Source of the DNA: Nanobdellota archaeon
GTDB lineage: Archaea; Nanobdellota; Nanobdellia; Woesearchaeales; WJIZ01
NCBI GenBank assembly: GCA_023140175.1
Contig: JAGLMD010000011.1
Span: forward strand, 1 to 41,427
Length of the DNA: 41,427 nucleotides
Direction of reading: 5' to 3'
Below the pieces are notes generated by a model. The model was given only the letters and a program-made list of their open reading frames with translations, was not told the DNA's origin and made no database searches. The first letter of the stretch is position 1, and each line of letters starts with the position of its first letter. Shown here in pieces: positions 2,293-38,743 of this stretch. Made by a program: the position numbers and the translations under genes.

Positions 2293-2796
2293 ATGGAGGA
2301 GGAACTGAAAAAAGCGGCTGAAGAATGGAAAAGAACATTTGATTCAATGGTCGATGGCATATCAATCCATACTACTGACTTTAAGATCCGGAATGTAAAT
2401 GTAACTATGTGCAATATGTTTGGAAAGAAAAAAGAGGAGATGATAGGCAAAAAGTGTTATGAAGTGTTTCATGGAAAGAGATCTCCTCTTACGATATGCC
2501 CTCAGAAAAGGGCAATAACCTCCAAAAAGAGGCAATCTGCAGAATTCTTTGAGCCACTTTTAAATAAGTGGGTGTCGGTAACTTCATCACCTGTTTTAAA
2601 TGGGCAAGGAGGGGTGATTGAGCTTGTTCATATTGTTCGAGACATTACTGATAAGAAGAATGAAGATAAAATCATCCAAGGGAGAAACGAGGAACTTGAG
2701 AGATTTCATAAATTAGCAGTTGGCAGAGAGTTGAAGATGATTGAATTGAAGAAGAGGATTATGCAATTGGAAAAAAGTGCAGATGGAGTTAAGTAA
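2293..2796 (+). CDS. PAS-domain protein ending in the GRELKMIELKKRI coiled coil
   Basis: PAS-like sequence (TFDSMVDGISIHTTDFKIRNVNVTMCNMFGKKKEEMIGKKCYEVFH...VRDITDKK) then ERFHKLAVGRELKMIELKKRIMQLE. Confidence 0.8.
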   Translation: MEEELKKAAEEWKRTFDSMVDGISIHTTDFKIRNVNVTMCNMFGKKKEEMIGKKCYEVFHGKRSPLTICPQKRAITSKKRQSAEFFEPLLNKWVSVTSSPVLNGQGGVIELVHIVRDITDKKNEDKIIQGRNEELERFHKLAVGRELKMIELKKRIMQLEKSADGVK

Positions 2797-3307
2797 AATG
2801 ATTACTATATTCTTAATAGGGGCGGGTGTATGTATGTTCCTTTTATCAGTTAGGAAATACATAGCAATAATCAAATATGCCCCCTCAGGCAGTCTAAGAA
2901 TCAGATGGATATTTTTATTTGTACTCACAGTGTTTTTTTTATTGGGTTATATTGCTCAGATAATTATCGAATATCGGGATCTAATAGTCAATGAAAAAGT
3001 TCTAATTGGCCTTGTTTACTTATTTGGCGCAATATATGTATTACTTGTTGTCTCTCTATCACTCTCAACTATTAAACAGTTCGGAGAGGAAGATAAAATC
3101 AAAGAGAGAAGCGAAAAGTTGGAATTATTTGTCAGGGAACGCACAAAGGAATTGGGAAAAAAGTCAAAGGAACTCGAGAAATCAAAGAAAGAACTGGAAA
3201 ATAAAGTACTTGAACTTGAAAAATTTAACACTCTTTCTGTTGGCAGAGAACTCAGAATGGTTGAGCTGAAGAAGAAGATTAAGGAGCTAGAGGAGAAGCT
3301 TAAATGA
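2777..3307 (+). CDS. Three-TM membrane protein with C-terminal coiled coil and GRELRMVELKKKI motif
   Basis: Hydrophobic segments then ...LELEKFNTLSVGRELRMVELKKKIKELEEKLK; likely real start is MITIFLIG within the overlap. Confidence 0.65.
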   Translation: MQMELSKMITIFLIGAGVCMFLLSVRKYIAIIKYAPSGSLRIRWIFLFVLTVFFLLGYIAQIIIEYRDLIVNEKVLIGLVYLFGAIYVLLVVSLSLSTIKQFGEEDKIKERSEKLELFVRERTKELGKKSKELEKSKKELENKVLELEKFNTLSVGRELRMVELKKKIKELEEKLK

Positions 3308-3340
3308 AAATAATCTTACTGAATATAAAATGGTGAAAAA

Positions 3341-4735
3341 ATGGCAAGTGAAGTAAGGATAAAGATAGCTGCTATGATAATAGCAGTGTTTATAATTGGA
3401 CTATCAGTTATAGGGTGTACAAGACAAGAAGAAATTCCTATAGAAATAGCTGAAAATGATGTTTTAGAAGAGCCAAATATTCAGGAAAAGATAAAGCTAG
3501 TTTATGCTGTTCATTGGATGGACAAGACCCAGCTAGATGGAATATACGAAGATGGCAGGCTAAAGTCAAAGGGATTAAAACAATATCTGAATGAATATAC
3601 AGGGCTGCATCCTGAAATAGAATTTGAGATTCTGAGCATACCTTATGGGGAATATGCTGCTAAGCTGGAGCTTTTACATGAGATTGACAGTGTTCCGGAC
3701 ATTTATCAGATTTATTCTTCATGGGGTGTCCTGTATGCAGAATTAGGCATGCTAGATGAACTGCCTCAAGACCTTAAGGAGGATGTTATCCAGAATTATG
3801 TGTCAACAGCAGGCGTTACAATAAACGGGGAAATAAGGGGAATACCGACTGAGATCAATGATTTTGCATTGCTTTATAATAAGGCTCTTTTCAGGGAAGC
3901 GGGTGTGGTTGATGAAGAAGGCAATGCGAAGTATCCAGAAACATGGGAAGAGCTGGTCGATGCTGCTGTGAAAACTACTAAGAAAGATGAGAATGGAAAT
4001 ATAGCCCAGTATGGGTATGCATTTTTGAAAGGGATGGATTGGGGTGTAGTTGATCCTTTTTTATCTTTGTTATTTAGCAATGAAGGCGATTATATTTCTG
4101 AAGATTATGCCCAATGTTTGCTTAACAGTTCTGAAGGCATTGAAGCATTAGAAGCAATCCTTGAATTATTTGATAATGGCGCAACAGATGCAAATTCAAA
4201 TGTTTTTGATTTTGGAAAAGGAAATGCAGTGATGATCATTGCAGCGCCATGGATGGAGGCAATGTTTAGAGAAACTATTGGAGATGAGTTTGATACAGTT
4301 GTTGGAGTGGCGCCAGTTCCATATTTGAAGAAATCGGCCAGCCTTCAATACAGCTGGTTTATGGGTGTTATGGGGAAGAGCAAGCACAAAGAAGAAGCCT
4401 GGGATTTCCTTAGGTGGTTTACTTCTGAGATTCAGCCTGACAGGAAAACTACAAGATATGGCGATTTATTGGCAAGAACTATCGGCGCAATTCCCAGCAG
4501 GAAAATAGATATTGAGGGCAATAAGGATAGGCTCAACAGCCCATTTAAGAAAGTATTTGTCGATGAACTGGAAAATTCAGTGCCAGAGCCAAACGTGATG
4601 CAGGGCTCTGAGATAAGGAAGATTTTAATGAGGGAAATTGAATCAGCATGGATTGGCGAGAAGAGTGCTAAAGAGACATTAGATGAGGCATGCGCTAGTA
4701 TCAACGAGATTCTGGCGCAGCATTATCCAGGGTAA
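3341..4735 (+). CDS. Extracellular solute-binding lipoprotein (family 1-like)
   Basis: Lipobox-like IIGLSVIGC; SBP-like sequence (IKLVYAVHWMD...PYGEYAAKLELLHEIDSVPDIYQIYSSWG...GIPTEINDFALLYNKALFREAGV); GGTGA SD. Confidence 0.8.
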   Translation: MASEVRIKIAAMIIAVFIIGLSVIGCTRQEEIPIEIAENDVLEEPNIQEKIKLVYAVHWMDKTQLDGIYEDGRLKSKGLKQYLNEYTGLHPEIEFEILSIPYGEYAAKLELLHEIDSVPDIYQIYSSWGVLYAELGMLDELPQDLKEDVIQNYVSTAGVTINGEIRGIPTEINDFALLYNKALFREAGVVDEEGNAKYPETWEELVDAAVKTTKKDENGNIAQYGYAFLKGMDWGVVDPFLSLLFSNEGDYISEDYAQCLLNSSEGIEALEAILELFDNGATDANSNVFDFGKGNAVMIIAAPWMEAMFRETIGDEFDTVVGVAPVPYLKKSASLQYSWFMGVMGKSKHKEEAWDFLRWFTSEIQPDRKTTRYGDLLARTIGAIPSRKIDIEGNKDRLNSPFKKVFVDELENSVPEPNVMQGSEIRKILMREIESAWIGEKSAKETLDEACASINEILAQHYPG

Positions 4736-4813
4736 AGTTAAGAAGAATTATGCTTGCTTGTAAGAAAGAAGCATATATAATAAATTGAGAATAAGTGTAA
4801 ACAGGGCAGAAGA

Positions 4814-5767
4814 ATGAGAATTAAGTTAAGCAGCATATTATTTAAAATCCTTTTTTTCGGAGTTATTTTAATCTTTATATCCCTTTTTACCTTTTCTTTT
4901 TTCTTAGTAAAAACTGAACAAAACAGGCTGTCTGAGGATATATTATGGGATGGATTGGTTTTTGCAGAGTTTACTGCCCAGTCCATCTATGAAGATTATT
5001 GGCTGTATTATACTCATCCAACAGAGGGGTTTTTTGAGAGATTCATGGAACGTGTAAACTATAAATTAGTGAAGAATAGGGATGTTGTCAGGGTATCATT
5101 AATAGGGGTGAACGGGAAGATACTGTTTGATTCTGATGAATTTGAGAAGTGCAAGTATAATGGCTCTAGGGTGAGATTTATTGAAGATAGTATTACTTTA
5201 GATCTGATTAAAAAAGAGAATCTGTCTTACAGAGAAATAAAGCTTAATGATGAGGATGCTGTTGAAGTAGTTGTGCCTATAAGAGAGGTTTCCGGGGGGC
5301 ATGTCATGTCAATGAGGTATATTATTTCTTATCATTCGTTTAGGGAGAAGATAAATGCAGTATATTCCCAGATTATTTTCATAACCATATTCTTATCAAT
5401 ACTTTCTTTTGCGCTGCTGATTCCTTTTTCAATCAGCTTAACCAGGCCGATCATTAAGCTGAAAGAATTGACTAAAAGAATAGGGGCAGGGGATTTAGAT
5501 ATAAAAATTGATTTAAAGGCCCATGATGAAATCAGTGAGCTTGCTGATGCATTTAACCAGATGACTTCGAACCTGAAGAGATCCCGTGCTGACCTGAAGG
5601 GATATAATATGGAGCTTGGAAGGAAGGTCAAAGAAAGGACAAAAGAGCTTGAGGATAAGAATAGGGAGCTTGAGAAATTCAACAAGCTGGCAGTTGGCAG
5701 AGAGCTGAAGATGATTGAGCTGAAGAAGAAAATAAAGGAATTGGAAGAAAAGGTTAAAGGTAAATAA
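4814..5767 (+). CDS. Membrane sensor: TM-extracellular domain-TM-HAMP-coiled coil, no kinase domain
   Basis: Two TM segments, HAMP (LTRPIIKLKELTKRIGAGDLDIKIDLKAHDEISELADAFNQMTSNL), terminal LEKFNKLAVGRELKMIELKKKIKELEEK. Confidence 0.8.
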   Translation: MRIKLSSILFKILFFGVILIFISLFTFSFFLVKTEQNRLSEDILWDGLVFAEFTAQSIYEDYWLYYTHPTEGFFERFMERVNYKLVKNRDVVRVSLIGVNGKILFDSDEFEKCKYNGSRVRFIEDSITLDLIKKENLSYREIKLNDEDAVEVVVPIREVSGGHVMSMRYIISYHSFREKINAVYSQIIFITIFLSILSFALLIPFSISLTRPIIKLKELTKRIGAGDLDIKIDLKAHDEISELADAFNQMTSNLKRSRADLKGYNMELGRKVKERTKELEDKNRELEKFNKLAVGRELKMIELKKKIKELEEKVKGK

Positions 5768-7854
5768 TTTAAATAAAATAGACTAAACAAATTCAAAAAA
5801 AGGTGAAAAATGAAAAAATTCTTGATTTTATTGATTAGTATTGTAATATCTATTTTGTTTATAGCAGGATGTTCACCATCAATAAAGGATGCTGAAACCC
5901 ATTTTGATGATATAGAGCCGATACAAACAGGATATGATCCAGGACTAAAGAATGTGCTGGTGATCCACAGCTACCATAAAGAATGGGGCTGGAACATAGA
6001 TACTGAAAAAGGCATTAAAGAGGGCCTTGAAAAGGGAGGTTATGTTCTTAATAAGGATTATGCTTTTGAGGCATTCTATATGGATACCAAAGACAGATAC
6101 ACCACTCCCGAACAGATAAGGATGAGGTCTGAGCAGGCAATAGCACTCATTGAAGAATATAATCCAGACCTGGTTTTTGTGAATGATGATAATGCCCTAA
6201 AGCATGTAGCTGTGCCATATACACTGCAAAACCCTGATAAAAAACTGCCTTTTGTCTTTAGCGGGATTAATAGTAATCCTACTATCTACGAGCCAATTGA
6301 TTCTCTTAAGGAACCAGGATACAGCATTACAGGCGCTCTTGAAAGGTTTCCTTATTACCAGAGTTTTTCTTTAGCAAAGCGGATATTGAAGAACAGGACA
6401 AGAATAGTCCTTTTTGCTGACTCCAGCCCAAGCTCAGATTTCCTTGCAGGTGCATTTAAGGAAAGGTACCTTGAAAAAGTTAAGGATTCTCCCCTTGATG
6501 TTATGGGCATTGTACAGGTGGATACATTCAAAGAGTGGAAAGAAAAAGTAAATGAGTACCAGGATAAATCAGATTTCCTGGGCATCTTAACTTATCATCA
6601 GCTAAAGGATGAGGAAGGCAATGTGGTTCATGCGTCAGAAGTTGTACTATGGACAATAAACAACAACAAACTGCCAGAGATCGGATTCCTTCAGTTCCAT
6701 GCTGAGGATGGGTTCTGGTCAGCTATTGGGGTTTCACCCCTAAAAACAGGAAGGTACATTGGTGAGATCGGAGCTGACATCTTAAAAGGCAAAGACCCGG
6801 GAGATATTCCTATTATTGATCCGAAACTAGTGGATGTTGCCTTTAATCTTGAAAGGTCAAAAATGCTCGGCATTGAAATCCCGATCGATATACTCGGAAT
6901 GGCTTCTGCTGCTTATTTGGAGATAAAGATGCCAAGATATTAGAATTTAAGAAGCCAAATCATAAAACATGAAATGACATTAAAGATACATGGAAAGATT
7001 GTATTGCTGGTAGGAATAGTTCTACTGGCTGCTCTTGGAATTAATACGTTAATTAGCACCTTTCAATTTAGAGAAAGTTATACACATGTTTTACAAACAA
7101 AAGTTGCTGTTGTTGGAGAAGATTTAAGGGAGGCAGTAATGAGCTCATTGGCTCTGGGATTTGAGTTAGATAAGCTAATTGGCGTAAATGACATGTGCCG
7201 GAAGATTATAACAAGATATAATGAGATTGACTATTGTTATATCATCAACCATAAAAATAATGTGCTTTATCACAATAATCATTCTTATGCAGGCAAGCTT
7301 CTTAGGGAGGAGCCAGGTGCAGATAAACTGCTGGATAAAGATATAACTATAATGACCTCTTTTTTTGAAGGCAAGGAATTTTATAATATAATTTTACAAA
7401 TAAAAGATGAAAATACTAAACTAGGTGAAATAAGACTGGGGCTTCCTTTTAAGATAATAAGGATGGAAACTGCTAAAATGGTAAAAAGTTCCATCTTATT
7501 GACTATTGTTTCATTTATCTTAGCAATAATGCTTTCGGTTTATCTATCTAAAAATATTACTTTTCCCATAAAGTTACTAACTGAAGGCGCAGGGGCAATA
7601 TCAGAAGGCAACTTGGATTATCATATCAATATTAAGAGTAAAGATGAGACAGGGCAGCTTGCTTCTGCTTTCAACCAGATGACTAATGATTTGAAAATGT
7701 CAATGGTTAAATTGGAAAAATACAGCAAAGAACTGGAAAAAAAGGTCAAAGAAAGGACAAAGGAGCTTGAGGATAAGAACATGGAGCTTGAGAAATTCAA
7801 CAAGCTGGCAGTTGGCAGAGAGCTGAAGATGATTGAGTTGAAGAAGAGAATAAA
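5624..7854 (+). repeat. Dispersed direct repeat, 113 bp copies at 5624-5736 and 7742-7854 (about 5 mismatches seen)
   Basis: Compared by eye; encodes the KVKERTKELEDKN.ELEKFNKLAVGRELKMIELKK tail of two sensors. Confidence 0.75.
5810..6943 (+). CDS. ABC-type substrate-binding lipoprotein (ABC_sub_bind-like)
   Basis: Lipobox LFIAGC; KNVLVIHSYHKEWGWNIDTEKGIKEGLEKGGY...PDLVFVNDDNALKHVAVPY; GGTGA SD. Confidence 0.75.
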   Translation: MKKFLILLISIVISILFIAGCSPSIKDAETHFDDIEPIQTGYDPGLKNVLVIHSYHKEWGWNIDTEKGIKEGLEKGGYVLNKDYAFEAFYMDTKDRYTTPEQIRMRSEQAIALIEEYNPDLVFVNDDNALKHVAVPYTLQNPDKKLPFVFSGINSNPTIYEPIDSLKEPGYSITGALERFPYYQSFSLAKRILKNRTRIVLFADSSPSSDFLAGAFKERYLEKVKDSPLDVMGIVQVDTFKEWKEKVNEYQDKSDFLGILTYHQLKDEEGNVVHASEVVLWTINNNKLPEIGFLQFHAEDGFWSAIGVSPLKTGRYIGEIGADILKGKDPGDIPIIDPKLVDVAFNLERSKMLGIEIPIDILGMASAAYLEIKMPRY

Positions 7855-7894
7855 TGAGTTAGATGATGAATTAAGAAAAGTAAAAAAGAGGTGA
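6974..7894 (+). CDS. Membrane sensor: TM-extracellular domain-TM-HAMP-coiled coil, no kinase domain
   Basis: HAMP (ITFPIKLLTEGAGAISEGNLDYHINIKSKDETGQLASAFNQMTNDL), terminal LEKFNKLAVGRELKMIELKKRINELDDE. Confidence 0.8.
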   Translation: MTLKIHGKIVLLVGIVLLAALGINTLISTFQFRESYTHVLQTKVAVVGEDLREAVMSSLALGFELDKLIGVNDMCRKIITRYNEIDYCYIINHKNNVLYHNNHSYAGKLLREEPGADKLLDKDITIMTSFFEGKEFYNIILQIKDENTKLGEIRLGLPFKIIRMETAKMVKSSILLTIVSFILAIMLSVYLSKNITFPIKLLTEGAGAISEGNLDYHINIKSKDETGQLASAFNQMTNDLKMSMVKLEKYSKELEKKVKERTKELEDKNMELEKFNKLAVGRELKMIELKKRINELDDELRKVKKR

Positions 7895-7900
7895 TTCGTT

Positions 7901-9244
7901 ATGAAAGAAAGCAGGATTATAGCAGCAGGCATCATGGTATTGCTTGTGCTTGTCATCATCGGATGTAAAAAAATTGAGACGGGAATTGAGGTGATTGAAA
8001 AAGAAGAATTGCCTGAACAAAAAGCAGGTGAATCAGTTAGTGTAGGTTATGGTTGGAGTACAAAAGACAATCCTAAAGAGGCAGTGACAGAAGCAGTATC
8101 CTCTGTAAAGGAAAGTTTAGGTGAAAAGATTCCTGAGTATGCAATATTGTTTGCTACTGTTGGCTATGATACAGATACCCTCCTTAAGGAGGTTAAAGCG
8201 CTTTTACCTGCTACTCAAATCTATGGCGGTACTTCGTTGCTCGGAGTTTTAACTAAAGATGGCTATCATGTTGGTGAAACTGGTTCACTATCTTTACTGG
8301 CTATATCTTCCTCAAAGATAACTTTTGGTGCGGGTGGAGCTAACCTGGATGACTTTGATTCACCAAGAGATGCAGGAAAGGAGGCTATTACTTCTGCTAT
8401 TAAGAATGCAGGAAGGGAAGGAGAATTACCGAAAATTGTGTTGATTACAACTGCTCCGGGACATGAAGAAGAAATAATTCATGGAATTGAGAATATTGTC
8501 AGCAACAATACTCCAATAATAGGGGGGTCTTCTGCTGATAATGATATAACCGGAAAATGGAAACAATTTGCTAATGACAAAGTGTACAGCAATGGTGTCA
8601 GTCTGACAGCTATCTTTACTGATTTGAAAGTTAGCTTTGCCTATGATGCTGGCTACTTGATAACTGAAAACCAAGGAATTATTACTAATGCTTCAGGCAG
8701 GGTTATCTATGAAATAGATAATAATCCAGCAGCCATTGTCTACAACGAGTGGACTGGCGGCATAATAAGCGACAAGCTTGAAACAGGAGGTTCGATTCTT
8801 TCTGAAACTTCCTTTTATCCCCTAGCAAAACTGTTGCAAGCAGAAACGGAAGAGATTCACTATCTCTCTGTCCATCCATTGTCGGTTAATTTGCCAGAGA
8901 AATCTCTTACTGTTTTTACTGACATAGAACAGGGACAAGAAATTTTGCTTATGCGCGGAAATTGGGAACTTCTCTTAAATAGAGCCCAAAGCACATCGCA
9001 TAATGCTTTAGCAAATGCAAAGATTGCCAAAGGAGAGGGATATTTTGGAATCTACACTTTCTGTGCTGGAACTTTGCTTGCCATTCCCGAGGAAGAAAGA
9101 GCCAAAATGACATTGTTAATTAACAGCGAATTAGGAGGTATCCCATTTATTGGAACTTTTACCTTTGGTGAGCAGGGTTTTATTCCTGGCGTAGGAAACA
9201 TGCATGGAAACCTCGTTAATTCCATGATAATCTTCAGCGAATAA
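7901..9244 (+). CDS. Exported FIST-domain lipoprotein
   Basis: Lipobox LVIIGC; FIST_N/FIST_C-like sequence (SVGYGWSTKDNPKEAVTEAV...YGGTSLLGVLT...PIIGGSSADND...GEGYFGIYTFCAGTLLAI...FIGTFTFGEQG); GAGGTGAT SD. Confidence 0.75.
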   Translation: MKESRIIAAGIMVLLVLVIIGCKKIETGIEVIEKEELPEQKAGESVSVGYGWSTKDNPKEAVTEAVSSVKESLGEKIPEYAILFATVGYDTDTLLKEVKALLPATQIYGGTSLLGVLTKDGYHVGETGSLSLLAISSSKITFGAGGANLDDFDSPRDAGKEAITSAIKNAGREGELPKIVLITTAPGHEEEIIHGIENIVSNNTPIIGGSSADNDITGKWKQFANDKVYSNGVSLTAIFTDLKVSFAYDAGYLITENQGIITNASGRVIYEIDNNPAAIVYNEWTGGIISDKLETGGSILSETSFYPLAKLLQAETEEIHYLSVHPLSVNLPEKSLTVFTDIEQGQEILLMRGNWELLLNRAQSTSHNALANAKIAKGEGYFGIYTFCAGTLLAIPEEERAKMTLLINSELGGIPFIGTFTFGEQGFIPGVGNMHGNLVNSMIIFSE

Positions 9245-9290: not shown

Positions 9291-10925
9291 ATGCAGGAGA
9301 AGAGAATAACCATATTTAGGAGAGTTTTTTTACTGATGGTTATAGTGTCCACTATTTCTGGAATTTTAATTCTATTTGTCACCGTTGTGTACCATCTCAA
9401 CGATATGGAAAGAGTCCTTATTCAACAAAACGAACTCCTTGCTGGAATTGCTTCACAAAGCATCGAAGCGGGTTATTTGGCTAAACATATCCCATTTGAG
9501 ACGATTAGAAGCATCACCGAGTCTGAAGATATTTTGTTCTTATGGGTGGTTAAGCCGGACGGAGAGGTTTACCTTTCTGATGACCCTGAGATGTGGGGGA
9601 AAAAAATCAAGGATGATTCTCTTGGCATAGGGGAGGTAATTGTTAAGGATAGTACCTCTGTTGGAGGAGAGGAACATATAAAAATTATTATACATCCCTT
9701 AAAGATTGGAGAGTCAGAAAAGAAGTGGACGCTCTACTTGGGAGTCTCATTAAAGTCGCTCACTATCGCAAGAAATAAAATGATTGTGATCAATACTATC
9801 TTATTTGTTTTAATAATCTTTTTTTCTTCTATTGTTTCTCTTTATCTAGCTAGGAGTGTTACCAAACCAATCATTGAATTAAAAAATGTTACAGACGAAT
9901 TAGCTAAAGGCAATCTGGATATTAGGGCAGAAATTAAATCAAGAGATGAAATTGGTGATCTAGCTTCTGCTTTTAATGATATGACATCTGATTTGAAAAA
10001 ATCCTATATGCATATAGAAGAACATGAACAGGCACTTGAGAATCAAGTTCAACAAAGGACACTAGAACTCCAGAAAAATGTCAAGGAGATAGAAGACTCC
10101 AAGCAGGCAGCAATAAACATGATGGAAGATGTTGATGAAACAAACAAACAATTACTGGAAGCCCAGGAAAAACTCAAGGGATATGTCAATGAGCTGGAAT
10201 CCCTGGATGTTAAGAAAGGGGAGTTTATCTCAATAACAGCACATGAGCTTAAAACACCCCTTACATCTATTAAGGGGTTTGCGGATCTTCTTCAAAATGA
10301 TAAGATAGCAGGCAATGCAAAATCAAGAAAAAATTATCTAAATATCATTCATCACGATGCTGAAAGACTAGGCAGATTAATTACAGACATTCTTGACCTG
10401 TCTAAAATCGACCTTGGTGCAATGAGATTTGAATATAGTGATATCAATCTTAGGGATGTTACAGATACAATGAGGAATCGAATTTATCCTAAGGCAGATG
10501 AAAAGAAAATAACCTTAAATTATGAAGTACCTGAGAACTTACCTACTATTACAACTGATGCAGACCGCCTTATCCAGGTTATCTCAAATATTATCAACAA
10601 TGCCATACGCTATACTTCAGACAATGGCAGGGTATTGGTAAGTGTTAAACCGGGGCAGGATGATTTTATAATTTCTGTAAAAGATACAGGTATGGGTATT
10701 CCAAAAGACCAGCTGGATAAGATATTTAATAGATTCTACCAGGTTGACTCTTCCTATACAAGAAAAGTGGGCGGATCCGGCCTTGGCCTTGCTATCTCTA
10801 AGGGAATTATAGATGCTATGAACGGCAGGATATGGGTTGAAAGTAAATTGGGAAAGGGATCTACTTTTTATATTTCATTACCTATGAAGCAGAAGAAAAA
10901 TAAGGATGGAGATACGGGCGTATAA
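9291..10925 (+). CDS. HAMP histidine kinase
   Basis: TM, HAMP, HisKA (SITAHELKTPLTSIKGFADLL), HATPase N box (VISNIINNAIRYTS), G1 (VKDTGMGIP), G2 (GGSGLGLAISKGI). Confidence 0.93.
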   Translation: MQEKRITIFRRVFLLMVIVSTISGILILFVTVVYHLNDMERVLIQQNELLAGIASQSIEAGYLAKHIPFETIRSITESEDILFLWVVKPDGEVYLSDDPEMWGKKIKDDSLGIGEVIVKDSTSVGGEEHIKIIIHPLKIGESEKKWTLYLGVSLKSLTIARNKMIVINTILFVLIIFFSSIVSLYLARSVTKPIIELKNVTDELAKGNLDIRAEIKSRDEIGDLASAFNDMTSDLKKSYMHIEEHEQALENQVQQRTLELQKNVKEIEDSKQAAINMMEDVDETNKQLLEAQEKLKGYVNELESLDVKKGEFISITAHELKTPLTSIKGFADLLQNDKIAGNAKSRKNYLNIIHHDAERLGRLITDILDLSKIDLGAMRFEYSDINLRDVTDTMRNRIYPKADEKKITLNYEVPENLPTITTDADRLIQVISNIINNAIRYTSDNGRVLVSVKPGQDDFIISVKDTGMGIPKDQLDKIFNRFYQVDSSYTRKVGGSGLGLAISKGIIDAMNGRIWVESKLGKGSTFYISLPMKQKKNKDGDTGV

Positions 10926-10945
10926 ATTAGCTGAGGTGCATTATT

Positions 10946-11065
10946 ATGAAAAAGAAAGAATTAATAGTTCAACTCGAAAAGGGATCTTACTGGGAGGATG
11001 AATTTATTTAGGATTATGATAATATAGAACAAATATTTAAGCTGCTTAAAGGAAAGAAAACTTAA
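10946..11065 (+). other. Micro-ORF MKKKELIVQLEKGSYWEDEFI-[TAG]-DYDNIEQIFKLLKGKKT*
   Basis: In-frame TAG at 11009-11011; same frame continues to TAA 11063-11065. Confidence 0.25.
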
Positions 11066-12025: not shown

Positions 12026-12122
12026 CGAATTGCCACCTCTTTGGAATAAAATAGATTTTGCGAGCTTCATTTATAAACATGGCGCATAAATTGGGATAAA
12101 AATTGGGGATTATGTGACATTT

Positions 12123-13021: not shown

Positions 13022-13059
13022 TTTTACTGTTTTGCTGTCCTTTTTGGATTCTATGCTAT

Positions 13060-14659: not shown

Positions 14660-14663
14660 TTTT

Positions 14664-28485: not shown

Positions 28486-28529
28486 TTTTTTATGTTTCTG
28501 ACATATTAGCAACTTCGTTGTTTAGTGTC

Positions 28530-29963: not shown

Positions 29964-32900
29964 TTTGAAATTTTGATAAATAAATATCCAGTACATTTAT
30001 GATGCCCTCTTTTGTTTTTTCATTAGCTATATCCTCTGCCAGCCCCTTATTCTCAAAAACATGCTCTATCCACTTACTAAAGTCATTTTTTTCTTCGTTA
30101 ACATGCCATGTAAATGTATCATTATCTATGTCTTTTAGGGCATTGTATAACTCGTCCAGGCTCTTTATGAACTTCTCGTTATGCATATAGAAAAAGAGCA
30201 TCGGATCTGTGATGATCTTCATTGGAACATTTTCTTTTTCTTCTATATCCAGGCCAATTTTTTCTAGTTTCTGCTTTACCTCTACATGTCTTTTCTTGAA
30301 TTCATAAAACATCTTTCTGTATGCTTCTTTATCAATCAGCCTTTTTTCGTAATACTTTATTTGCAGGTCTTCCATTATATTCATCAGTTCCTTTGCTTCA
30401 GATCTTAAGGCATCATTCTTTTCTTTCTTTAATAGCGCACTTTGTTTCATCCTCAACTCAATGAGTTTATAGTGTATCTCTGCTATCCTCTTCCTGTATT
30501 TATCCATATATGACTTATATAGGCCAGTGCCAATAATTCTATCAATGAAATAATTTGTTTGTGTTTGCCTTATTGAATTCATAATTGCTTCTTCTCCCGC
30601 CTTCAGATCTCTTATTTTAGTAGAGATCCTGCTGCTTTCTGTAGACTTATGGGCGATTATGCCGCTGCCAGAAAGTAATATTAATGCTGCTATCGATAAT
30701 AGCCAATGCTCTTTTAAGAAATTCCTGACTCTTGCAAATTGTTCAATTGATTTTTGGACACTAATGCTCAATTCAGCTTCTTTTAATCTCTCAACAGCCC
30801 TATTGAAATTGCCCCTTTCAAACGCACCTATCGCTAATTCCAGTATTCTTTCAGCTATGCCGGTATCATAACCTTCTTCTCTTGATTTATTGATTGTGTC
30901 TTTAAGGAACAATATCCCATTATACGCATCATAAGCATTTTCCTGTAATACTTTCAGTTCGTTACAGAATTCCTTCACTTTTTTGTAATCCTTGCTATAC
31001 TTTGCAAGTTTTGCCTTATTGATAATTTTTTTGAATACGATAATATTAAAATTCTTTTCTTCCATATCATCCATACTTTCTTCAAATTCATATAAACAGA
31101 TTATATCTTCTTCGCTTACTTCATGAATTATCAAGTTGATTCTTTTACTATCTTTAATTGATTTATATGAGCCTGTTTTGGATGCTGCTTCATTCATCTC
31201 TTTACCGTTAGCAGTAACTAATAACTCTAATTCGTGCCTGCTTTCTTTCATATATCCCGGTATGTCAATAACAACCATGAATTTCTTAATGCTGCCGTAA
31301 CTAATGCTCCTTTTGATATCAGGCTGAATAGTGATATACCCAGTCTTAAATCCTTTTATCTCCAGCTCAATATTATCAAGTAATGTTCCGCTTCTATCGT
31401 TAATGACCTCAACCACAAAGCTTTTCTTTGTTCCTCTCATGACTTCGATTTCATCTGGTGCAACTATTGATAATTTATAGTCGGGTGCGGCATATCTCAC
31501 TATACCTCCTATTCCTCCTCCACCACCTGTGCTACTTTCACCACCTCCACTTCCACCTCCTCCAGGGGTAACAGGGGTGCTGCTTGTACCGGGTTTATTT
31601 ATACTGATATATTTTATATCGCTGCTATAACTTCCACTGCCTGAATTAGCCCGCACTTCAATCCGGGCTGAGGAAGTTAATTCAGCATCAGGCAAAACAC
31701 TCACAATGAGGCTGTGATAAACACTCTCGCCAGCAGCAAGTGAGCTAAAGCTCATATTGAGGGAGTTTCTAGTGATAAAATCAGAAGGTATGGTCCAATT
31801 AGATGTTATATTATAAGCTGCTGCCCCTCCTACATTCATAATTCGTGAAGTTAAATTTATACCTATCTGGCCCTGCTCTACTGAGGCATCATACTCATAG
31901 ATATAAGCAAATAGATTAGCTGAGGTATCAGATGAAACTACTATAGTTGTTTCTGTTAAGGAAGAAGAAGGAACTGCACTGGAATTTGCTGCGTCGATTG
32001 TTATGTCAATCTCGTATTGTCCATCTAATCCAGGCGCTACAGCACTTACTATAATACTTTTTGTACTTCCTGCTGCCACATCAAATGGTTCGGTTTCATT
32101 ATATCCTACTGCAGGTTGATTTGCCGGATTAGAAAGATCAAATCTTAGCGCATAATCTCCTGTATTATTTATTGTCAATGTTCCCAATGTAACTACCTGG
32201 CTTGGCTGAGCTCCCTGGGGTATAAATGCTGCAGGAGTTCTGTTCCAGGTCCAATCATAAAATGCCTCTATGGTTGTATTTGCACTGACATTAATATTTC
32301 CAGAACTGTCATTTGCCCAGATTCTGAATATCCAATTGTTTTCTGTATCTGGTGTGAAATTACCTACAAAGAGTCCGCTGGAGTTTCTCATTGTTCCATT
32401 GTTCCATTCACTTGCGTTTGTTTCTTTATATTGTAAAATTGCTGCGCTTATTCCATATCTATCGCTGACATTAGCAGTTACATTAATTGTCCTGTTTGGA
32501 TCAATATCATCTAAACTTGCTGGTGTATAGGTTATATTTTTTATATTGGGCAAGATTGTGTCATTAATTGTGAAATTAAATGTAGGTGTATAATTCCAAT
32601 TACCCACAGAATCATTCATAAAGAAAGAATAATACTTTGTGCCTAAATTATTTACTTCCCATGTGTGATTGTATAATCCTGTTGATGCCAGTGCCATTGT
32701 ATGGTTGCTGCCATTGTAAAATATCAAAACACTCTCTACATTCGTTAAAGCATCACTAACATTAATTGTTATTATCTGTGCTTTATTGCCGCTTAGAGGA
32801 TCTTCTAATTCACTTATGTCCTGGTATCCTGGAGGGGATAAATCAATTATAAACTGGATTCTATTTGAGACATTAGAATTACCTAAACTATCATTTGCAA

Positions 32901-35163
32901 AGATGGTAAGATTGTAAATGCCTTCTACTGGACTATTAAATTCATAATACCACACATTACCATTATTGTACATACTGAAATTCTGTTTTGTTCCATTTGG
33001 ATAACTGACCTGAGCCAGGCTGATAATAGAAAATGCATCGCTGACATTGGCTGTGATATTAAATGTAGTTAGATTGGTGCCGGAATAGGGAGTGATATTT
33101 TCTCCAGTAATCTGCGGAGGAGTACTATCAATTGTAATGATTCTGGTTCCAGTCTGATTAACATTTCCTGCTGTATCATTTATCCATACATAATAAGTAT
33201 AAGTTCCATCACTTAATCCAGATTTTGTTATATTTGTATAAGTGCCAGAGTAGGAATAAGATTCATTTGTTCCATTCCAATCCAAGATTAAAGTATGGGG
33301 ATAACTTTCAGTATGTGTTATGCTTATTATAGCTGTTGTGGAACTTTGATTACTGTTATTCTGAGGGGTAGGTGAGCTAAAATTAATTATAGGGGGAATA
33401 GTATCGATATATAATGTGTAATTATTCAAGGAGAAGACACCAGAGCCGCCTGTATTATTACATCTCACGTTCCATATATACTTTCCATCACTTAAATCCA
33501 GGGGATCAAAAACATCTAGTGTGCTAGCAGCTACAGTTGAATTTGTCTGATTTTCTTTCCAGGTGCCAGAGAAGTTGCCCCATAAGCTGCAGCTATCCAG
33601 ATCTGATCCTTGAGGGATATAACTGAATGTGATAATCCCGCTATTATTAGCGAAATTATTAGCTGGGCCAACTAAATTAACTATTAAATCTGAGGTGTTT
33701 GTTATATATGTAAATGTATTTGTAGAAATCCTATAATTTCCAGCCAAATCATAAGCTATGATGCGCCAATACCAGCTATTGTTGTTTGTCAGGCTTCCAT
33801 CAAATTGATATGAAGAATTGCTGATATTATTGCAGATATATCTCGTATGATTGACTGCTGCAAATGTGTTATCTGTTGAGATTTGCAATGTATAATTTGC
33901 AAAATTATTTTCAGTTGTAGAACCCCATTCGAATAGGGGAGATAAATCAGCATTACTTACGGCATGTTCATTATCTGGGGGGCTGCTCAGGTCAAATGCA
34001 AATGGGTTTGTTAAATCTATGTTAACTGTTTTTGTTTTACTGGAATTAATGTTTCCAGCAGAATCATTTGCATAGACAAAATATGTGTATGCGCCTTCAC
34101 TTAAGCCGGATTTTGCTATCTGGCTTGTACTTCCGGAGTATGCCTGCACTGTTTCATTGGTTCCATTAATATTTAAAATCAGGCTGTCTGGATTTGTATC
34201 ACTATGATTTACATCCACTGTCAATGTGGAAGAGTTTTGGTAACTATCATTCTTTGGTGATGTTATGCTTATGCCAGGCCGGGTCAGATCAACATTAGCA
34301 GTGTAATTGATGTCATATCCATCGATATTGCTTTCATTGTCATAACAATAAACATTCCATATATAGCTGCCTTCACTTAAATTCATTGTGATATTGGTTA
34401 TTGTATTATTCTGGACATTGTAAACTGTTTTTTTAGCTGACCAACCACTATCGTCAGTAAATAGGCTGCAGTTATCTATCTGGTTATTTGCGGCTGCTGT
34501 GAAATTGAAGTCAATCAGAGTAAATGCTTTTGCACTTCCATTTTCTGGATTGTCCAGGCTTTGAACTATCAATTCAGAACCAGATGCAGCCACAACTTCA
34601 AAGCTGATATCATCAGTATCAGCACCATAATTTGAATTGTCAGAACCGCAGGTTATACCATTTATAATGGTGCTGCTCCAATAGATCATTGCCCTTATAC
34701 TATGGGTTCCGGCAACATCCTCTAGTGTAATGTTTTTATAAAAATACTCGTAACCGCCTGAATTACAAATGCCGGAATCATAAACATTTTTCCAACCACT
34801 GCCATTTGTATAAGCAAAAGCTATCCCATCCGGGTATGTATCACATTTGATATAGCCCTTTATCTCTACGGTGTGGCCGCCGGTAAATATGCTTCCATCT
34901 AAATCAGTAATAGTGATGTCCTGCACCCATTCATTTCCAGTCCATTCATCTGCACAATCATCTATTGTATTATATCCATTGCCAGATTCTCCGCCGCTAT
35001 TACATTGCGCACCACAAATGCAGGGAGAACCAGAACCGCAAATATTTCCTGCGGCTGCAAAGACATAGATGCCAATTATGGCTGCTACTATCAGTAATAT
35101 GTAACATAGCAATAAGTACCTTAGGCTGAATTTCGATGTCTTGTTTCTGTGATTTAACTTCAT
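29947..35163 (-). CDS. Giant surface protein (1738 aa), paralog of 16138..21009
   Basis: Signal, CGSGSPCICGAQCNSGGESGNGYNTIDDC, Ig-like repeats (LTRPGISITSPKNDSYQNSSTLTVDVNHSDTNPDSLILNINGTNET), GGGGSGGGESSTGGGGGIGG linker, TM, coiled coils, C-terminal FFYMHNEKFIKSLDELYNALKDIDNDTFTWHVNEEKNDFSKWIEHVFENKGLAEDI. Confidence 0.8.
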   Translation of the reverse strand: MKLNHRNKTSKFSLRYLLLCYILLIVAAIIGIYVFAAAGNICGSGSPCICGAQCNSGGESGNGYNTIDDCADEWTGNEWVQDITITDLDGSIFTGGHTVEIKGYIKCDTYPDGIAFAYTNGSGWKNVYDSGICNSGGYEYFYKNITLEDVAGTHSIRAMIYWSSTIINGITCGSDNSNYGADTDDISFEVVAASGSELIVQSLDNPENGSAKAFTLIDFNFTAAANNQIDNCSLFTDDSGWSAKKTVYNVQNNTITNITMNLSEGSYIWNVYCYDNESNIDGYDINYTANVDLTRPGISITSPKNDSYQNSSTLTVDVNHSDTNPDSLILNINGTNETVQAYSGSTSQIAKSGLSEGAYTYFVYANDSAGNINSSKTKTVNIDLTNPFAFDLSSPPDNEHAVSNADLSPLFEWGSTTENNFANYTLQISTDNTFAAVNHTRYICNNISNSSYQFDGSLTNNNSWYWRIIAYDLAGNYRISTNTFTYITNTSDLIVNLVGPANNFANNSGIITFSYIPQGSDLDSCSLWGNFSGTWKENQTNSTVAASTLDVFDPLDLSDGKYIWNVRCNNTGGSGVFSLNNYTLYIDTIPPIINFSSPTPQNNSNQSSTTAIISITHTESYPHTLILDWNGTNESYSYSGTYTNITKSGLSDGTYTYYVWINDTAGNVNQTGTRIITIDSTPPQITGENITPYSGTNLTTFNITANVSDAFSIISLAQVSYPNGTKQNFSMYNNGNVWYYEFNSPVEGIYNLTIFANDSLGNSNVSNRIQFIIDLSPPGYQDISELEDPLSGNKAQIITINVSDALTNVESVLIFYNGSNHTMALASTGLYNHTWEVNNLGTKYYSFFMNDSVGNWNYTPTFNFTINDTILPNIKNITYTPASLDDIDPNRTINVTANVSDRYGISAAILQYKETNASEWNNGTMRNSSGLFVGNFTPDTENNWIFRIWANDSSGNINVSANTTIEAFYDWTWNRTPAAFIPQGAQPSQVVTLGTLTINNTGDYALRFDLSNPANQPAVGYNETEPFDVAAGSTKSIIVSAVAPGLDGQYEIDITIDAANSSAVPSSSLTETTIVVSSDTSANLFAYIYEYDASVEQGQIGINLTSRIMNVGGAAAYNITSNWTIPSDFITRNSLNMSFSSLAAGESVYHSLIVSVLPDAELTSSARIEVRANSGSGSYSSDIKYISINKPGTSSTPVTPGGGGSGGGESSTGGGGGIGGIVRYAAPDYKLSIVAPDEIEVMRGTKKSFVVEVINDRSGTLLDNIELEIKGFKTGYITIQPDIKRSISYGSIKKFMVVIDIPGYMKESRHELELLVTANGKEMNEAASKTGSYKSIKDSKRINLIIHEVSEEDIICLYEFEESMDDMEEKNFNIIVFKKIINKAKLAKYSKDYKKVKEFCNELKVLQENAYDAYNGILFLKDTINKSREEGYDTGIAERILELAIGAFERGNFNRAVERLKEAELSISVQKSIEQFARVRNFLKEHWLLSIAALILLSGSGIIAHKSTESSRISTKIRDLKAGEEAIMNSIRQTQTNYFIDRIIGTGLYKSYMDKYRKRIAEIHYKLIELRMKQSALLKKEKNDALRSEAKELMNIMEDLQIKYYEKRLIDKEAYRKMFYEFKKRHVEVKQKLEKIGLDIEEKENVPMKIITDPMLFFYMHNEKFIKSLDELYNALKDIDNDTFTWHVNEEKNDFSKWIEHVFENKGLAEDIANEKTKEGIINVLDIYLSKFQNERTK

Positions 35164-35675
35164 TTTCTTTTCTTTTTGACTCTATTGTAAACTGTCCAAA
35201 TTGTCCTTTGATCTCTACTAAGTATGAGGGCTATCTGATGATAGTTTAGGTCATAGTTCTCTTTCAGGTAGGAGGCAACAAGCTCCAGGATACTGAACCT
35301 TCGATCACTCAAGATAGAGATTGGTATGTTATATTTCGAGTAATCTTCCTGGAATATTATTGCAAGTTTCTTTCTGCTGGAATTATAGGCCTGCCAGACT
35401 GTCTTTTGATTTCTTCCAAGAAGCCTGCCTATTGATTTGAAGGAATGGTTTAGATTTTCTTTTAGGAATTTGACAATTGTCTCTAATGGACTTAATCTCC
35501 TGTTGAAGATATTCACAGGAATAACTTCTTTGGTCTTAATCCCTCTCAATTCTTCAAATTTCTTTATGTATTCTTCAGTTAAGTTCTCCAGCAGAAATCT
35601 GAATTTCTCAATTTCTTTGTTTTCAGAATTAGCAGAATCAGAATTATTGCTCTCTTTTTCCAATTTTTTCTGCAT
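35160..35675 (-). CDS. Regulator with two tandem HTH-like repeats
   Basis: LETIVKFLKENLNHSFKSIGRLLGRNQKTVWQAYNSSRKK and LELVASYLKENYDLNYHQIALILSRDQRTIWTVYNRVKKK; overlaps the giant protein gene. Confidence 0.7.
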   Translation of the reverse strand: MQKKLEKESNNSDSANSENKEIEKFRFLLENLTEEYIKKFEELRGIKTKEVIPVNIFNRRLSPLETIVKFLKENLNHSFKSIGRLLGRNQKTVWQAYNSSRKKLAIIFQEDYSKYNIPISILSDRRFSILELVASYLKENYDLNYHQIALILSRDQRTIWTVYNRVKKKRK

Positions 35676-35676
35676 T

Positions 35677-35990: not shown

Positions 35991-37073
35991 TTACTCTAAG
36001 AATATTTCCTGCATCGGATAAACCTCCATACCTTTTCCTTGCACAAAACTAAACGGAACAATCTTCTTTTTATGGCTTGTGCCCCTTATTTTCACTACTT
36101 CTGTCGCGTTTATCCGGCTATTGCCTTTTTTCATGTTATAGAAGGCTATAACGCCATCAGCTAAGAATTCTTCAACACCTGTTTTACTTAGTTTTGTGCT
36201 TCCTTCTTCGCACTCTGTAATCAGGAAAGAGGTTATATCCATTTTTTCGAATGACCTGAATAATTGTTCTATATAAATTCTGTATGCTGCTTCTTCCTCT
36301 GCAAAAGCAGCACCTATAGCACTTAGAGAATCAACAACAACAAGGTCTGGCTTGAAATCTTCTGGTATTAGTGTTTTTGTTTTATCTATCTTTATAATTA
36401 ATTCACCTCTAGCCTCAGCTAATAATGCTTCTATTGAGCGGGATATCATGAAAGGATCATATCTTTTAATCAGAAGATTGCCTTCCTGTTCCAGTTTGTT
36501 TGGATCCCATCCATACTGTTTTAGGTGCTCTTTTAGCCTTACTTCGCTCTCTTCGAAGGACATGTATAAGCATTTTTTTCCTTGAGAAGCATTACTCATT
36601 ATTACCTGTGATGCGAAGGTGGTTTTTCCGCTTCCTGCACTGCCGCTTACAAGAACAATGCTTTTTTTTGGGATGCCTTTCTCTATCAGGTCATCAAAGC
36701 CGGGAATGCCTGTTTTTATATATTCTATATTACCTACTGTTATTTTATTGGCGCCGGGAACATTTATTGTGTTTTCTTCTATGGCCTCTTCAATCTCTTT
36801 TTCTTCTTTAGTTTCTGTTTCTTTAGTGTCTACTTTAGTATAATTTTTGATTCTTTTATGTATTTCTACGCATTTATTGAATACTTTCTTCTTGTCAATA
36901 CTGCTCAATATTTTGTATATCTTTTCAATTTCAGAGTATTTCCTGTTAGCCTCACTGGAATTTCCATTCTCAAGGTCTTGGCTTATTTTTTGAATTAATT
37001 TATCAATATTCCCCTCTTTTTTAAACCGCCCAACTATTTGTTCCTTTTTACTTAATAAGAATTCCTTTACCAT
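35991..37073 (-). CDS. KaiC-family ATPase with N-terminal helical domain
   Basis: IKTGIPGFDDLIEKGIPKKSIVLVSGSAGSGKTTFASQVIM, KPDLVVVDSLSAIGA, EVVKIRGTSHKKKIVPFSFV; N-terminal LIQKISQDLENGNSSEANRKYSEIEKIYKILSSIDKKKVFNKCVEIHKRI. Confidence 0.92.
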   Translation of the reverse strand: MVKEFLLSKKEQIVGRFKKEGNIDKLIQKISQDLENGNSSEANRKYSEIEKIYKILSSIDKKKVFNKCVEIHKRIKNYTKVDTKETETKEEKEIEEAIEENTINVPGANKITVGNIEYIKTGIPGFDDLIEKGIPKKSIVLVSGSAGSGKTTFASQVIMSNASQGKKCLYMSFEESEVRLKEHLKQYGWDPNKLEQEGNLLIKRYDPFMISRSIEALLAEARGELIIKIDKTKTLIPEDFKPDLVVVDSLSAIGAAFAEEEAAYRIYIEQLFRSFEKMDITSFLITECEEGSTKLSKTGVEEFLADGVIAFYNMKKGNSRINATEVVKIRGTSHKKKIVPFSFVQGKGMEVYPMQEIFLE

Positions 37074-37131
37074 GTTGCCTCTTTTTCAAAGATTAATAAT
37101 TAGTATACCACCAATTAGAGTTTGGATGCTT

Positions 37132-37668
37132 TTAATCAAATTGGATCTCTTCATCAATAAACATAGATATATCCTTAAGCAACTCTTTCTCCATATCACC
37201 CTCTGAACAAGTGAATATTGCCATACAATTTGCAGCGCCTATCGGGCCAATAATTGAATGTACAAACCGTGAAATGACATGTACTGGCTCATATAATAAG
37301 AGGGTTGATAAAGAATCAAATAATATCACTTCGCTTTTTTGTTCATTTATTGTTTTTTGAATAGCTATAGCTAATTCGGTCAATTTATCAGGGGCCGAGA
37401 CAAAAACACAATTGGATACTTCTCCTGTCTCTGAAACAGATGTTTTTGTTATGCCGTCAATGAAATTGAACTTATTAATGTCAACCTTATTTGCTATCAA
37501 ACTTCTCTTTAACGGCTGATAACGCTGGTTTAAACTTACATAGCATATTCTGTTATAACTATCAGCAAGCTGTTTTGAGATAGTGATCATATTCTTGATA
37601 TAGTTCACTCTTGGCATAATTAATGCGATAGATGAATAATTCTCAATTTCTTCTTTTATAACAGTCAT
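37132..37668 (-). CDS. KaiC/RecA-like protein lacking Walker A (paralog 4)
   Basis: ICYVSLNQRYQPLKRSLIANKVDINKFNFIDGITKT...NCVFVSAPDKLTELAIAIQKTINEQ...ILFDSLSTLLLYEPVHVISRFVHSII. Confidence 0.65.
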   Translation of the reverse strand: MTVIKEEIENYSSIALIMPRVNYIKNMITISKQLADSYNRICYVSLNQRYQPLKRSLIANKVDINKFNFIDGITKTSVSETGEVSNCVFVSAPDKLTELAIAIQKTINEQKSEVILFDSLSTLLLYEPVHVISRFVHSIIGPIGAANCMAIFTCSEGDMEKELLKDISMFIDEEIQFD

Positions 37669-37903
37669 TTTATTCTCTCCTAATAAATATTTAAGGTGAA
37701 TTTATTAATATTTATAACTATCGCTTTTTAATTTGTATTAATGTTCTAATATCAAAGCAACAGGGCGTTTCTTAGTATGGTTCTCCTATAACTCCATATA
37801 CACCAAGAAAAGTAGAAGAGATTAGTAAGTGTGCAAAATTAGTGGTTTATATCAGTTTTTTTAAATAGAAATAATGGCTATTAGTTTTCTTTGCAGCTTT
37901 TAT

Positions 37904-38743
37904 TCAAGCAAAGAATTTTAGATATATTACAATTCCTGCAATGCTCAGCAATATACCCACTATTATGCCCTGGATAAATTCTTTTGAGAAAAATCTTGCT
38001 TTTTTCGGTTTTTTAAGCTCTTCGAGCTTGTTTTCAATGTGCTGCTCTATTTCTTCAATCTTCTTTTCTCTCTTCTCAATTTCCTTTTCTTTTTGGAGTA
38101 TTTCATCTATCTTTTGCGATGAAATGCCCGCTTTCTGGTTAATCTTTTTCTGCTCTGCCTTTATCTTTTGTGCTGAGCTATCTACTTTCTCGTCAATCTT
38201 CTCTTCTGTTTTTTCTATCTTCTTTTCAATTAATTTCATTGTTTCTTCTGTTGCGGCTTTTAGAATTTCCTGCGTTGATTTTTTATTCTTTTGCTTGTCT
38301 TTTTTCTTATCTTTATCTTCTTTTTCCAGTTTTTTTATAGTCTTATATTCTGATGCCACTTCACTATCCACTAAAGGCAGGTTATTAAAGCCATACTTTA
38401 TTTTTTTCATTAAAGTAGTTTTTATTTTAGGCTCTTTTTCTTCTTTTTTGGGCTTTTTGTCTTTTACTTTCTTTATCCTCTTTTTAATTAATTTTAAGAT
38501 TTTTTCTTTTGATGTGGTTTTTAAGATATCTTTTGCAAGCTTTTCAGCCTTAATAATATGTTTTATCCATTCGCTAAAATCATTCTTTTCATTATTGACA
38601 TGATGTATAAATGACTCATTATCCATCTGTTCAATGGCTGTTTTTAATTCATGCAGGCTCTTTATTATAACTCCATTCTTGGAGAAGAAATAGTGAGTAG
38701 GATCTATATCCCTTAATATGCCTATCTTCTTTATTTCGACCAT
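37904..38743 (-). CDS. Tail-anchored coiled-coil protein with N-terminal DUF5752-like module
   Basis: IDPTHYFFSKNGVIIKSLHELKTAIEQMDNESFIHHVNNEKNDFSEWIKHIIKAEKLAKDI, coiled coil, C-terminal TM (FIQGIIVGILLSIAGIVIYLKFFA). Confidence 0.65.
   Translation of the reverse strand: MVEIKKIGILRDIDPTHYFFSKNGVIIKSLHELKTAIEQMDNESFIHHVNNEKNDFSEWIKHIIKAEKLAKDILKTTSKEKILKLIKKRIKKVKDKKPKKEEKEPKIKTTLMKKIKYGFNNLPLVDSEVASEYKTIKKLEKEDKDKKKDKQKNKKSTQEILKAATEETMKLIEKKIEKTEEKIDEKVDSSAQKIKAEQKKINQKAGISSQKIDEILQKEKEIEKREKKIEEIEQHIENKLEELKKPKKARFFSKEFIQGIIVGILLSIAGIVIYLKFFA

Follow-up and report, generated by a model that had tools for sequence, protein, structure and literature searches.

The window analyzed here, a stretch of 41,427 bases that makes up an entire contig (C13), belongs to a DPANN archaeal genome of the Woesearchaeales type (2.07 Mb, 184 contigs, 100% completeness). 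The locus that it carries joins two conserved DPANN gene modules, one for a membrane-anchored surface ATPase of the HerA family (module 1) and one for sensors and a KaiC switch together with giant surface proteins (module 2). DPANN archaea rely on cell-cell contacts, the machinery of which is, to our knowledge, almost unknown; the locus may serve contact with other cells under signal control. We compared the window to 100 genomes of the same order, nearly all from different families, and to 77 public loci, the named ones of which are mostly from Woesearchaeota and also from Nanoarchaeota and Pacearchaeota. Below, G and L numbers denote genomes and loci, respectively, and G000 is the genome of the window. 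Transmembrane (TM) segments were assigned by hydrophobicity, and the GREL, DUF5752-like and helical (HELXN and HELXC) profiles were built in this study from a training set that includes the window. An earlier note on this DNA had interpreted the genes as a single integrated system, and all of the genes that it named are intact open reading frames with the boundaries used below.

A conserved operon around a membrane-anchored HerA ATPase

The HerA protein of the window (24256..28512, minus strand) consists of a TM segment (residues 23-41), an ectodomain with carboxypeptidase-regulatory repeats, a second TM segment (861-879), a HerA/DUF87 domain (E 3e-11) and a helical tail. It is a full TM-ectodomain-TM-HerA protein, and not an accidental fusion. 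The closest ATPase folds are HerA structures, and both the RecA fold and the Walker A motif are present. A VirB4 identity, as proposed for the SPEARE proteins discussed below, was rejected, with no match to the VirB4 N-terminal domain in the window HerA and with HerA structures as the best ATPase matches. No HAS-barrel was matched in the protein, which has two TM segments and an ectodomain instead, and profile scans of the window proteins gave no match to NurA. A library of viral structures yielded only generic HerA/FtsK and Ig matches.

The gene is part of a minus-strand operon that is headed by a double helix-turn-helix (HTH) gene (35160..35675), which overlaps by 4 bp with the gene for giant Ig surface protein 2 (29947..35163; 1,738 residues; Big_13, E 5e-16), a protein with a TM segment, a coiled coil and a DUF5752-like tail (E 3e-21). 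These are followed by a gene for a TM coiled-coil protein of the giant-tail family (28530..29996; identified by the GTAIL profile and its TM segments), by the HerA gene, and by genes for a helical adaptor with HELXN and HELXC domains (23655..24254), a second adaptor (23286..23645) and a conserved coiled-coil protein (22203..23270), all on the minus strand. Co-transcription is expected, since the intergenic spacing within the HerA operon ranges from -50 to +17 bases. The helical adaptor is 53% identical to the HerA tail (E 4e-27), and it is conserved after HerA elsewhere. The second adaptor resembles the coiled-coil protein at its N-terminus (39% identity, E 2e-7) and ends in a GREL tail (E 2e-20); it resembles an incomplete copy of the N-terminus of the coiled-coil gene joined to a GREL tail, and among the 100 genomes it is present only in this one. 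Relatives of the double-HTH gene (L059, L061, L069, L070) lie beside genes for short secreted or surface proteins, as in a regulator cassette.

Relatives of the HerA protein with its TM stalk were identified in about 32 of the 100 genomes, from many families, and the coiled-coil protein in 30. That the two belong together, as supposed in the earlier note, is borne out: both are present in 29 genomes, HerA alone in 3, the coiled-coil protein alone in 1 and neither in 67 (Fisher p 1e-20, a value that overstates independence because the genomes are related, although nearly every one represents a different family). In the 77 public loci, the usual order is a ribbon-helix-helix (RHH) regulator, a PKD/Ig membrane protein of 900-1,370 residues, HerA, a DUF5752-like and/or helical adaptor, and the coiled-coil protein. 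Counting informative contigs only, HerA has the PKD protein directly upstream at 45 of 62 loci and an RHH gene upstream at 32 of 58; on the downstream side, it is followed by an adaptor at 49 of 72 and, at a distance of at most four genes, by the coiled-coil gene at 44 of 69. Phylum-wide, the core was recovered from 55 of 286 genomes at E 1e-60. The HerA and coiled-coil genes are also present on a 9,424-bp contig from Guaymas labelled "Nanohalarchaeota" (L147).

A presumed division of labor between two HerA types

A typical HerA of this family combines an ectodomain, an ATPase with the Walker B residues DE, and a DUF5752-like tail, roles that are split in one clade. The short A type (about 770 residues) is encoded downstream of RHH and PKD genes, has no large ectodomain, and keeps both the DE residues and the DUF5752-like tail. 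The B type, to which the window copy belongs, carries the ectodomain, has a helical tail in place of DUF5752, and is followed by the coiled-coil gene. In the window copy, the Walker A motif GTSGSGKS is kept (25687..25710, minus strand), as in the B type generally, and the catalytic position of Walker B (25318..25320, minus strand) is Gly in place of Glu, reading DGIH as compared to DE[VI]H in all 17 of the other rows aligned. Eight of the 9 proteins of the B clade have Gly or Ser in place of the glutamate. Among A-type proteins, Walker A, Walker B and the motif REFRKWG are near invariant. In a tree obtained by a quick search with no bootstrap, the B clade (9 rows, SH-like approximate likelihood ratio test, SH-aLRT, 99) is the sister of the short A clade (11 rows, 100), with a joint support of 96, and the glutamate was lost once.

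A short A type is also present in all nine of the B genomes. The two genes are in tandem in L076, L078 and L079, and they share an assembly but not a contig in L119/L071, L101/L072, L082/L075, L089/L077 and L125/L087, as well as in G000, where the short A gene (C98:34726-36675; locus L031) retains the Walker B glutamate and has RHH and PKD genes of its own. The AlphaFold model of a short A protein consists of a TM segment, two beta domains, a TM segment, the ATPase and a DUF5752-like end (predicted local distance difference test score, pLDDT, 84). In a second clade (L133, L139, L140, L143), a short HerA is paired with an ectodomain-stalk-TM protein that contains no ATPase. The sequences thus indicate that the surface part was split from the motor at least two times independently.

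The ectodomains can reach an extreme size. In G029 (C41:15376-62805; L173-L175), an open frame of 15,809 codons, predicted from a draft assembly and not a detected protein, contains TM segments at residues 21-39 and 15417-15435 and ends in a HerA domain. It is followed by a second HerA (699 residues) and a coiled-coil protein, and both HerAs keep DEVH. Other long frames are found in G199 (12,057 codons, with two stops inside the HerA match), G078 (8,189) and G060 (8,055). In L075, L077 and L080, an A-type HerA gene is directly followed by a gene for a small two-TM protein and by three KaiC genes.

Sensors, KaiC proteins and giant surface proteins

The two KaiC proteins of the window, KaiC1 (21418..22197, plus strand; KaiC, E 3e-48) and KaiC2 (35991..37073, minus strand; KaiC, E 1e-51), score above the family cut-off and contain Walker A. 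Close relatives of KaiC1, which defines the module 2 subfamily, were found in 11 other genomes with 53-62% identity (12 of the 100, including that of the window). Most of these relatives are surrounded by genes for a giant of the Ig/NEW3 type, a TM coiled-coil protein that has the giant's tail, inactive KaiC-like proteins (DUF7504), receivers, a histidine kinase, HAMP/GREL sensors and a substrate-binding lipoprotein. Module 2 is present in G047, G078, G084, G089, G068, G037, G034, G069, G024, G038 and G053. The KaiC subfamily thus accompanies the sensors, giants and two-component proteins in other families, as the earlier note implied. GREL/HAMP sensors and the KaiC subfamily co-occur across the 100 genomes (10 with both, 13 and 2 with one, 75 with neither; p 3e-6), and GREL co-occurs more weakly with HerA (p 0.02).

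In the window, module 2 begins on the plus strand with an input protein in which a PAS domain precedes a C-terminal GREL coiled coil (2293..2796; PAS_4, E 7e-13; GREL, E 2e-22) and a protein with three hydrophobic TM segments and a GREL coiled coil (2777..3307; E 2e-19). Lipoproteins of the SBP_bac_1 substrate-binding (3341..4735; E 1e-30), ABC_sub_bind (5810..6943; E 3e-13) and FIST (7901..9244; E 4e-28) families alternate with two two-TM HAMP sensors with GREL tails (4814..5767, HAMP E 8e-14; 6974..7894, HAMP E 1e-12), the first of which contains no kinase domain and has relatives that adjoin KaiC in other families. The plus-strand series ends with a HAMP histidine kinase with HisKA and HATPase domains (9291..10925), homologs of which are part of module 2 in G047, G078, G084, G089 and G068. 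On the minus strand, the two-component system is represented by a stand-alone response regulator receiver domain (11062..11433; E 2e-27) and a second receiver (12650..13063; E 4e-26).

Also on the minus strand are genes for a DUF7504/DUF835-type inactive KaiC-like protein without Walker A (11477..12070; sub-threshold DUF835 and KaiC matches, with homologs in module 2), a DUF7504-like protein (12123..12653; profile match), a DUF7504 inactive KaiC-like protein (13170..13706; PF24336, E 1e-6, above the cut-off) and a protein with four CBS domains (13715..14767; E 3e-38). They are followed by a TM coiled-coil protein with the same cytosolic tail as the giant (14777..16141; GTAIL profile), which is conserved next to giants, and by giant Ig/NEW3 surface protein 1 (16138..21009; 1,623 residues; NPCBM_assoc, E 3e-10) with a TM segment at 1262-1280, a coiled coil and a DUF5752-like tail (E 8e-22). 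Both giants and HerA have two TM segments each, one N-terminal and one ahead of the cytosolic part. Beyond KaiC2, the minus strand encodes another DUF7504 inactive KaiC-like protein (37132..37668; PF24336, E 1e-9) and a protein with a DUF5752-like domain (E 5e-22), a coiled coil and a C-terminal TM anchor at 260-278 (37904..38743).

The three sets of shared domains on which the single-system interpretation had been built were all recovered. The GREL coiled coil is present in four plus-strand proteins (starting at 2293, 2777, 4814 and 6974) and in the 23286..23645 adaptor (hidden Markov model E 1e-19 to 1e-22); a search for the tail on plasmids gave no match. The DUF5752-like module is found in both giants (residues 1550-1606 and 1657-1712) and in the 37904..38743 protein (17-73) with E 1e-21 to 1e-22, and it is called DUF5752-like only, with 16.7 to 20.3 bits against Pfam PF19027 and a curated cut-off of 23. 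A helical domain is shared by the HerA tail (1362-1414), the 23655..24254 adaptor (144-196) and KaiC2 (23-75; HELXC, E 9e-16), with E 1e-14 to 1e-16 among the three. The helical part of KaiC2 is also matched by a PKD-type protein from another locus (BLAST E 3e-5). The idea that the tails of the PKD protein and of the giants descend from one source was rejected after a negative profile comparison, and no solved structure resembles the fold of the DUF5752-like plus helical adaptor. In relatives, DUF5752 also forms the HerA tail, and KaiC is fused to a DUF5752-like domain in G047, G084, G034, G069 and L120, as it is to the helical domain in the window.

Module 2 carries additional genes in some genomes, with CheC, two CheR and CheD in G069 and CheC, Hpt and a kinase in G038. 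CheC, CheR, CheD or Hpt adjoin KaiC and giants at L166:12340-15257 and L168:10088-12999; no methyl-accepting chemotaxis protein was noticed in these stretches, in which no search aimed at such proteins was made. In G024, a ParA/MinD-type ATPase is encoded between tail proteins, and such a gene lies between two giant-tail proteins at L164:4995-5807 and L167:12270-13073; the ATPase may position the complex. A KaiC-profile match in L126 looks like RadA and was left out of the KaiC set. The two modules are flanked on the left by a HEPN/nucleotidyltransferase cluster (55-2131; an MNT/HEPN-type nucleotidyltransferase and two HEPN-like genes) and on the right by eIF5A and a site-2 protease, as read from the sequences.

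One apparatus or two, and relation to known systems

We favor, with moderate confidence, a reading in which the two modules are joined, with a HerA complex of the SPEARE kind driven by an A/B motor, KaiC/two-component signalling acting on the giants, and KaiC as the switch. It builds on the composition and conservation of the modules, the pairing of A and B, the loss of the glutamate, the sharing of domains, the adjacency of the genes, the HerA fold, and the topology seen by hydrophobicity and AlphaFold. In module 1, the ectodomain would be outside the cell and the HerA motor inside, connected by the TM segment, with the helical adaptor and the coiled-coil scaffold at the cytosolic face. The window would provide the B half, and contig C98 the active A partner. 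A and B may form one hetero-oligomeric motor, either as a single ring or as stacked rings, in which A would hydrolyze ATP and B would tie the motor to the surface. The motor may bind partner cells and move DNA or protein across the membrane at the cell contact, the transport being suggested by what HerA-family ATPases do elsewhere. In module 2, the lipoprotein/HAMP sensors, the histidine kinase and the receivers would act together with active and inactive KaiC proteins on the giants. KaiC would dock onto HerA and the giants via the shared DUF5752-like and helical domains and switch the apparatus on or off; the putative signal route would run from lipoprotein to HAMP, KaiC and HerA.

The modules are contiguous in three families, represented by the window, G047 and G078. 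On a single contig of G047, the order is KaiC, giant, coiled coil, DUF7504, receiver, kinase, sensor, lipoproteins and PAS/GREL, and then coiled coil, adaptors, HerA, PKD and RHH. In G078, sensors and kinase, a giant with KaiC, two more giants and module 1 are all located within 35 kb. Several observations weigh against the joined reading. HerA is missing from six of the genomes with module 2 (G089, G068, G037, G024, G038, G053), module 1 occurs mostly without module 2, and the co-occurrence of the KaiC subfamily and HerA among the 100 genomes is not beyond chance (p 0.19). A B form with the glutamate kept is found in L082, and a short A in L073 in the draft genome of which no B was found. All of the genomes are drafts from uncultured organisms, and no substrate or channel protein was found. 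Because each module also occurs alone, the claim of a single integrated system receives only partial support. In part, the families occur independently in related genomes, an outcome that the earlier note had set against its own model. We conclude that the modules are separable, share docking domains and are sometimes combined, with the single system as one of two remaining readings.

The other is that the neighboring modules are separate systems, in which HerA would form a surface apparatus of its own and the control exerted by the KaiC/two-component module would extend to giants only, with the adjacency and shared domains due to a common pool of adaptors. The separate occurrence of the modules and the p value of 0.19 speak for this explanation. 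Against it stand the contiguity in three families, the presence of DUF5752-like domains on HerA, adaptor, giants and KaiC alike, the adjacency of KaiC and coiled-coil genes in the window and in L120, and the KaiC triplets just downstream of HerA in L075, L077 and L080, and we regard it as rather doubtful. An apparatus for adhesion only, in which HerA would use ATP to assemble, retract or cluster giant adhesins by mechanical means and nothing would be transported, seems to us unlikely. It is suggested by the great size of the Ig ectodomains that the ATPase itself carries, with the two-TM frame of 15,809 residues as the maximum, and by an operon with no obvious channel subunit. However, HerA and related superfamily members are translocases of nucleic acids or proteins, and the near invariance of Walker A, Walker B and REFRKWG in the A types is a further argument against it.

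Regulation of an archaellum or type IV pilus, with KaiC and the coiled-coil protein as the ArlH and ArlC of a filament, is very improbable. KaiC relatives are already known to accompany and adjoin archaeal type IV pilus genes (PMC4858521), and the genome has separate pilus loci on contigs C53 and C46 that include T2SSF platform genes and encode class III pilin-like proteins. However, the 22203..23270 protein, called ArlC-like in the earlier note, gave no match to FlaC_arch (PF05377) in a scan reporting up to E 0.1, and the search in its own genome gave E 1.5. FlaC_arch was also absent among the 25 best families listed for 29 members of the coiled-coil family. Neither the Pfam, NCBIfam and solved-structure profiles nor the FlaC search of the genome itself supported an ArlC identity, which was rejected; the protein represents a separate family of coiled-coil proteins with strong conservation. 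No archaellin (PF01917) was matched in the genome at E 1, and the archaellum connection proposed for these genes is not supported; the absence of ArlI, ArlJ and archaellin from the window was correctly noted. Pilus platform genes are present in 86 of the 100 relatives, on other contigs than HerA and with a weak link to it (p 0.03). In view of the missing FlaC_arch match, the missing archaellin and the pilus loci on other contigs, the window is not an archaellum locus; it resembles ArlC/D/E/H in having a KaiC-fold ATPase with a coiled-coil partner, and differs in that the ArlC model is unmatched and the genome has no archaellin. Least probable of all is antiviral defense by HerA and an associated effector, a reading for which the PADLOC HerA and mads_8 profiles match the ATPase domain only, and against which stand the TM topology and ectodomain, an operon conserved across many families, and the fact that neither the window nor this operon contains SIR2, DUF4297, NurA or another nuclease partner.

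The closest known kind of protein is the SPEARE giant protein, named in Nanohaloarchaeota as a candidate for host interaction (PMC6642349, PMC10266531). In the passages of these papers on SPEARE proteins, the architecture comprises a Sec signal or TM segment, a long Ig-type ectodomain, one TM segment, a cytosolic HerA/VirB4-like ATPase, a coiled-coil end and an adjoining second ATPase gene, features shared with the system described here. The window HerA has an N-terminal signal/TM segment, an adhesion/Ig-like ectodomain, a single TM segment after it and a cytosolic HerA/VirB4-like ATPase, and differs from the same passages in that its ATPase reads as HerA and not VirB4. Since it has only 1,418 residues and no laminin-G match, it is SPEARE-type and not a SPEARE protein; the longest nanohaloarchaeal giant is given as 9,409 residues (PMC10266531), and HerAs related to that of the window reach 15,809. 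Related cytosolic parts had been noted by Hamm et al. in Woesearchaeota and other lineages, and L147 is likely the 9-kbp hydrothermal contig in their list of SPEARE matches, which it fits in size and source. The SPEARE passages contain no mention of the conserved RHH, PKD, adaptor and coiled-coil genes, the pair of active and degenerate HerA, or the KaiC/two-component module found here.

Other systems are more distant. The HerA of HerA-NurA and of anti-phage systems is alike in ATPase fold and motifs, and differs from the window protein, which has TM anchors and an ectodomain in place of the HAS-barrel and no NurA or effector partner. The crenarchaeal DNA import system Ced contains two TM-bearing HerA-clade ATPases, CedB and CedD, both of which are needed (PMC11868833). 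The CedD profile matches the window HerA below its cut-off (E 2e-8), but no CedA or CedA1 genes were seen in the window, the ectodomain is of Ig type, and a VirB4-type N-terminal domain was not seen. Archaeal KaiC signal hubs, with inactivated KaiC (DUF835/MEDS) and receivers, are already known (PMC5847659); they share KaiC, inactive KaiC, receiver and histidine kinase with module 2, which differs in its fusions to DUF5752-like and helical adaptors and its neighboring giant surface proteins and HerA. In the literature searched, outside of which lie subscription papers, we did not encounter the operon, the A/B pair, the KaiC link or a Woesearchaeal HerA/KaiC system.

We propose, tentatively, an undescribed cell-contact machine of DPANN archaea, in which a hetero-oligomeric membrane-anchored HerA, composed of an active A and a degenerate, ectodomain-bearing B subunit, would be gated by a KaiC/two-component, partly chemotaxis-like module via DUF5752-like docking. 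What is new is that the SPEARE-type ATPase part gains a conserved operon and a place in many families of Woesearchaeales, that the separation of an active motor from a surface-bearing subunit without ATPase or catalytic residue is seen repeatedly, and that the SPEARE-type ATPase apparatus receives a candidate signalling input. The results provide gene names to seek in co-cultures and cryo-tomograms, and they can be tested with purified proteins.

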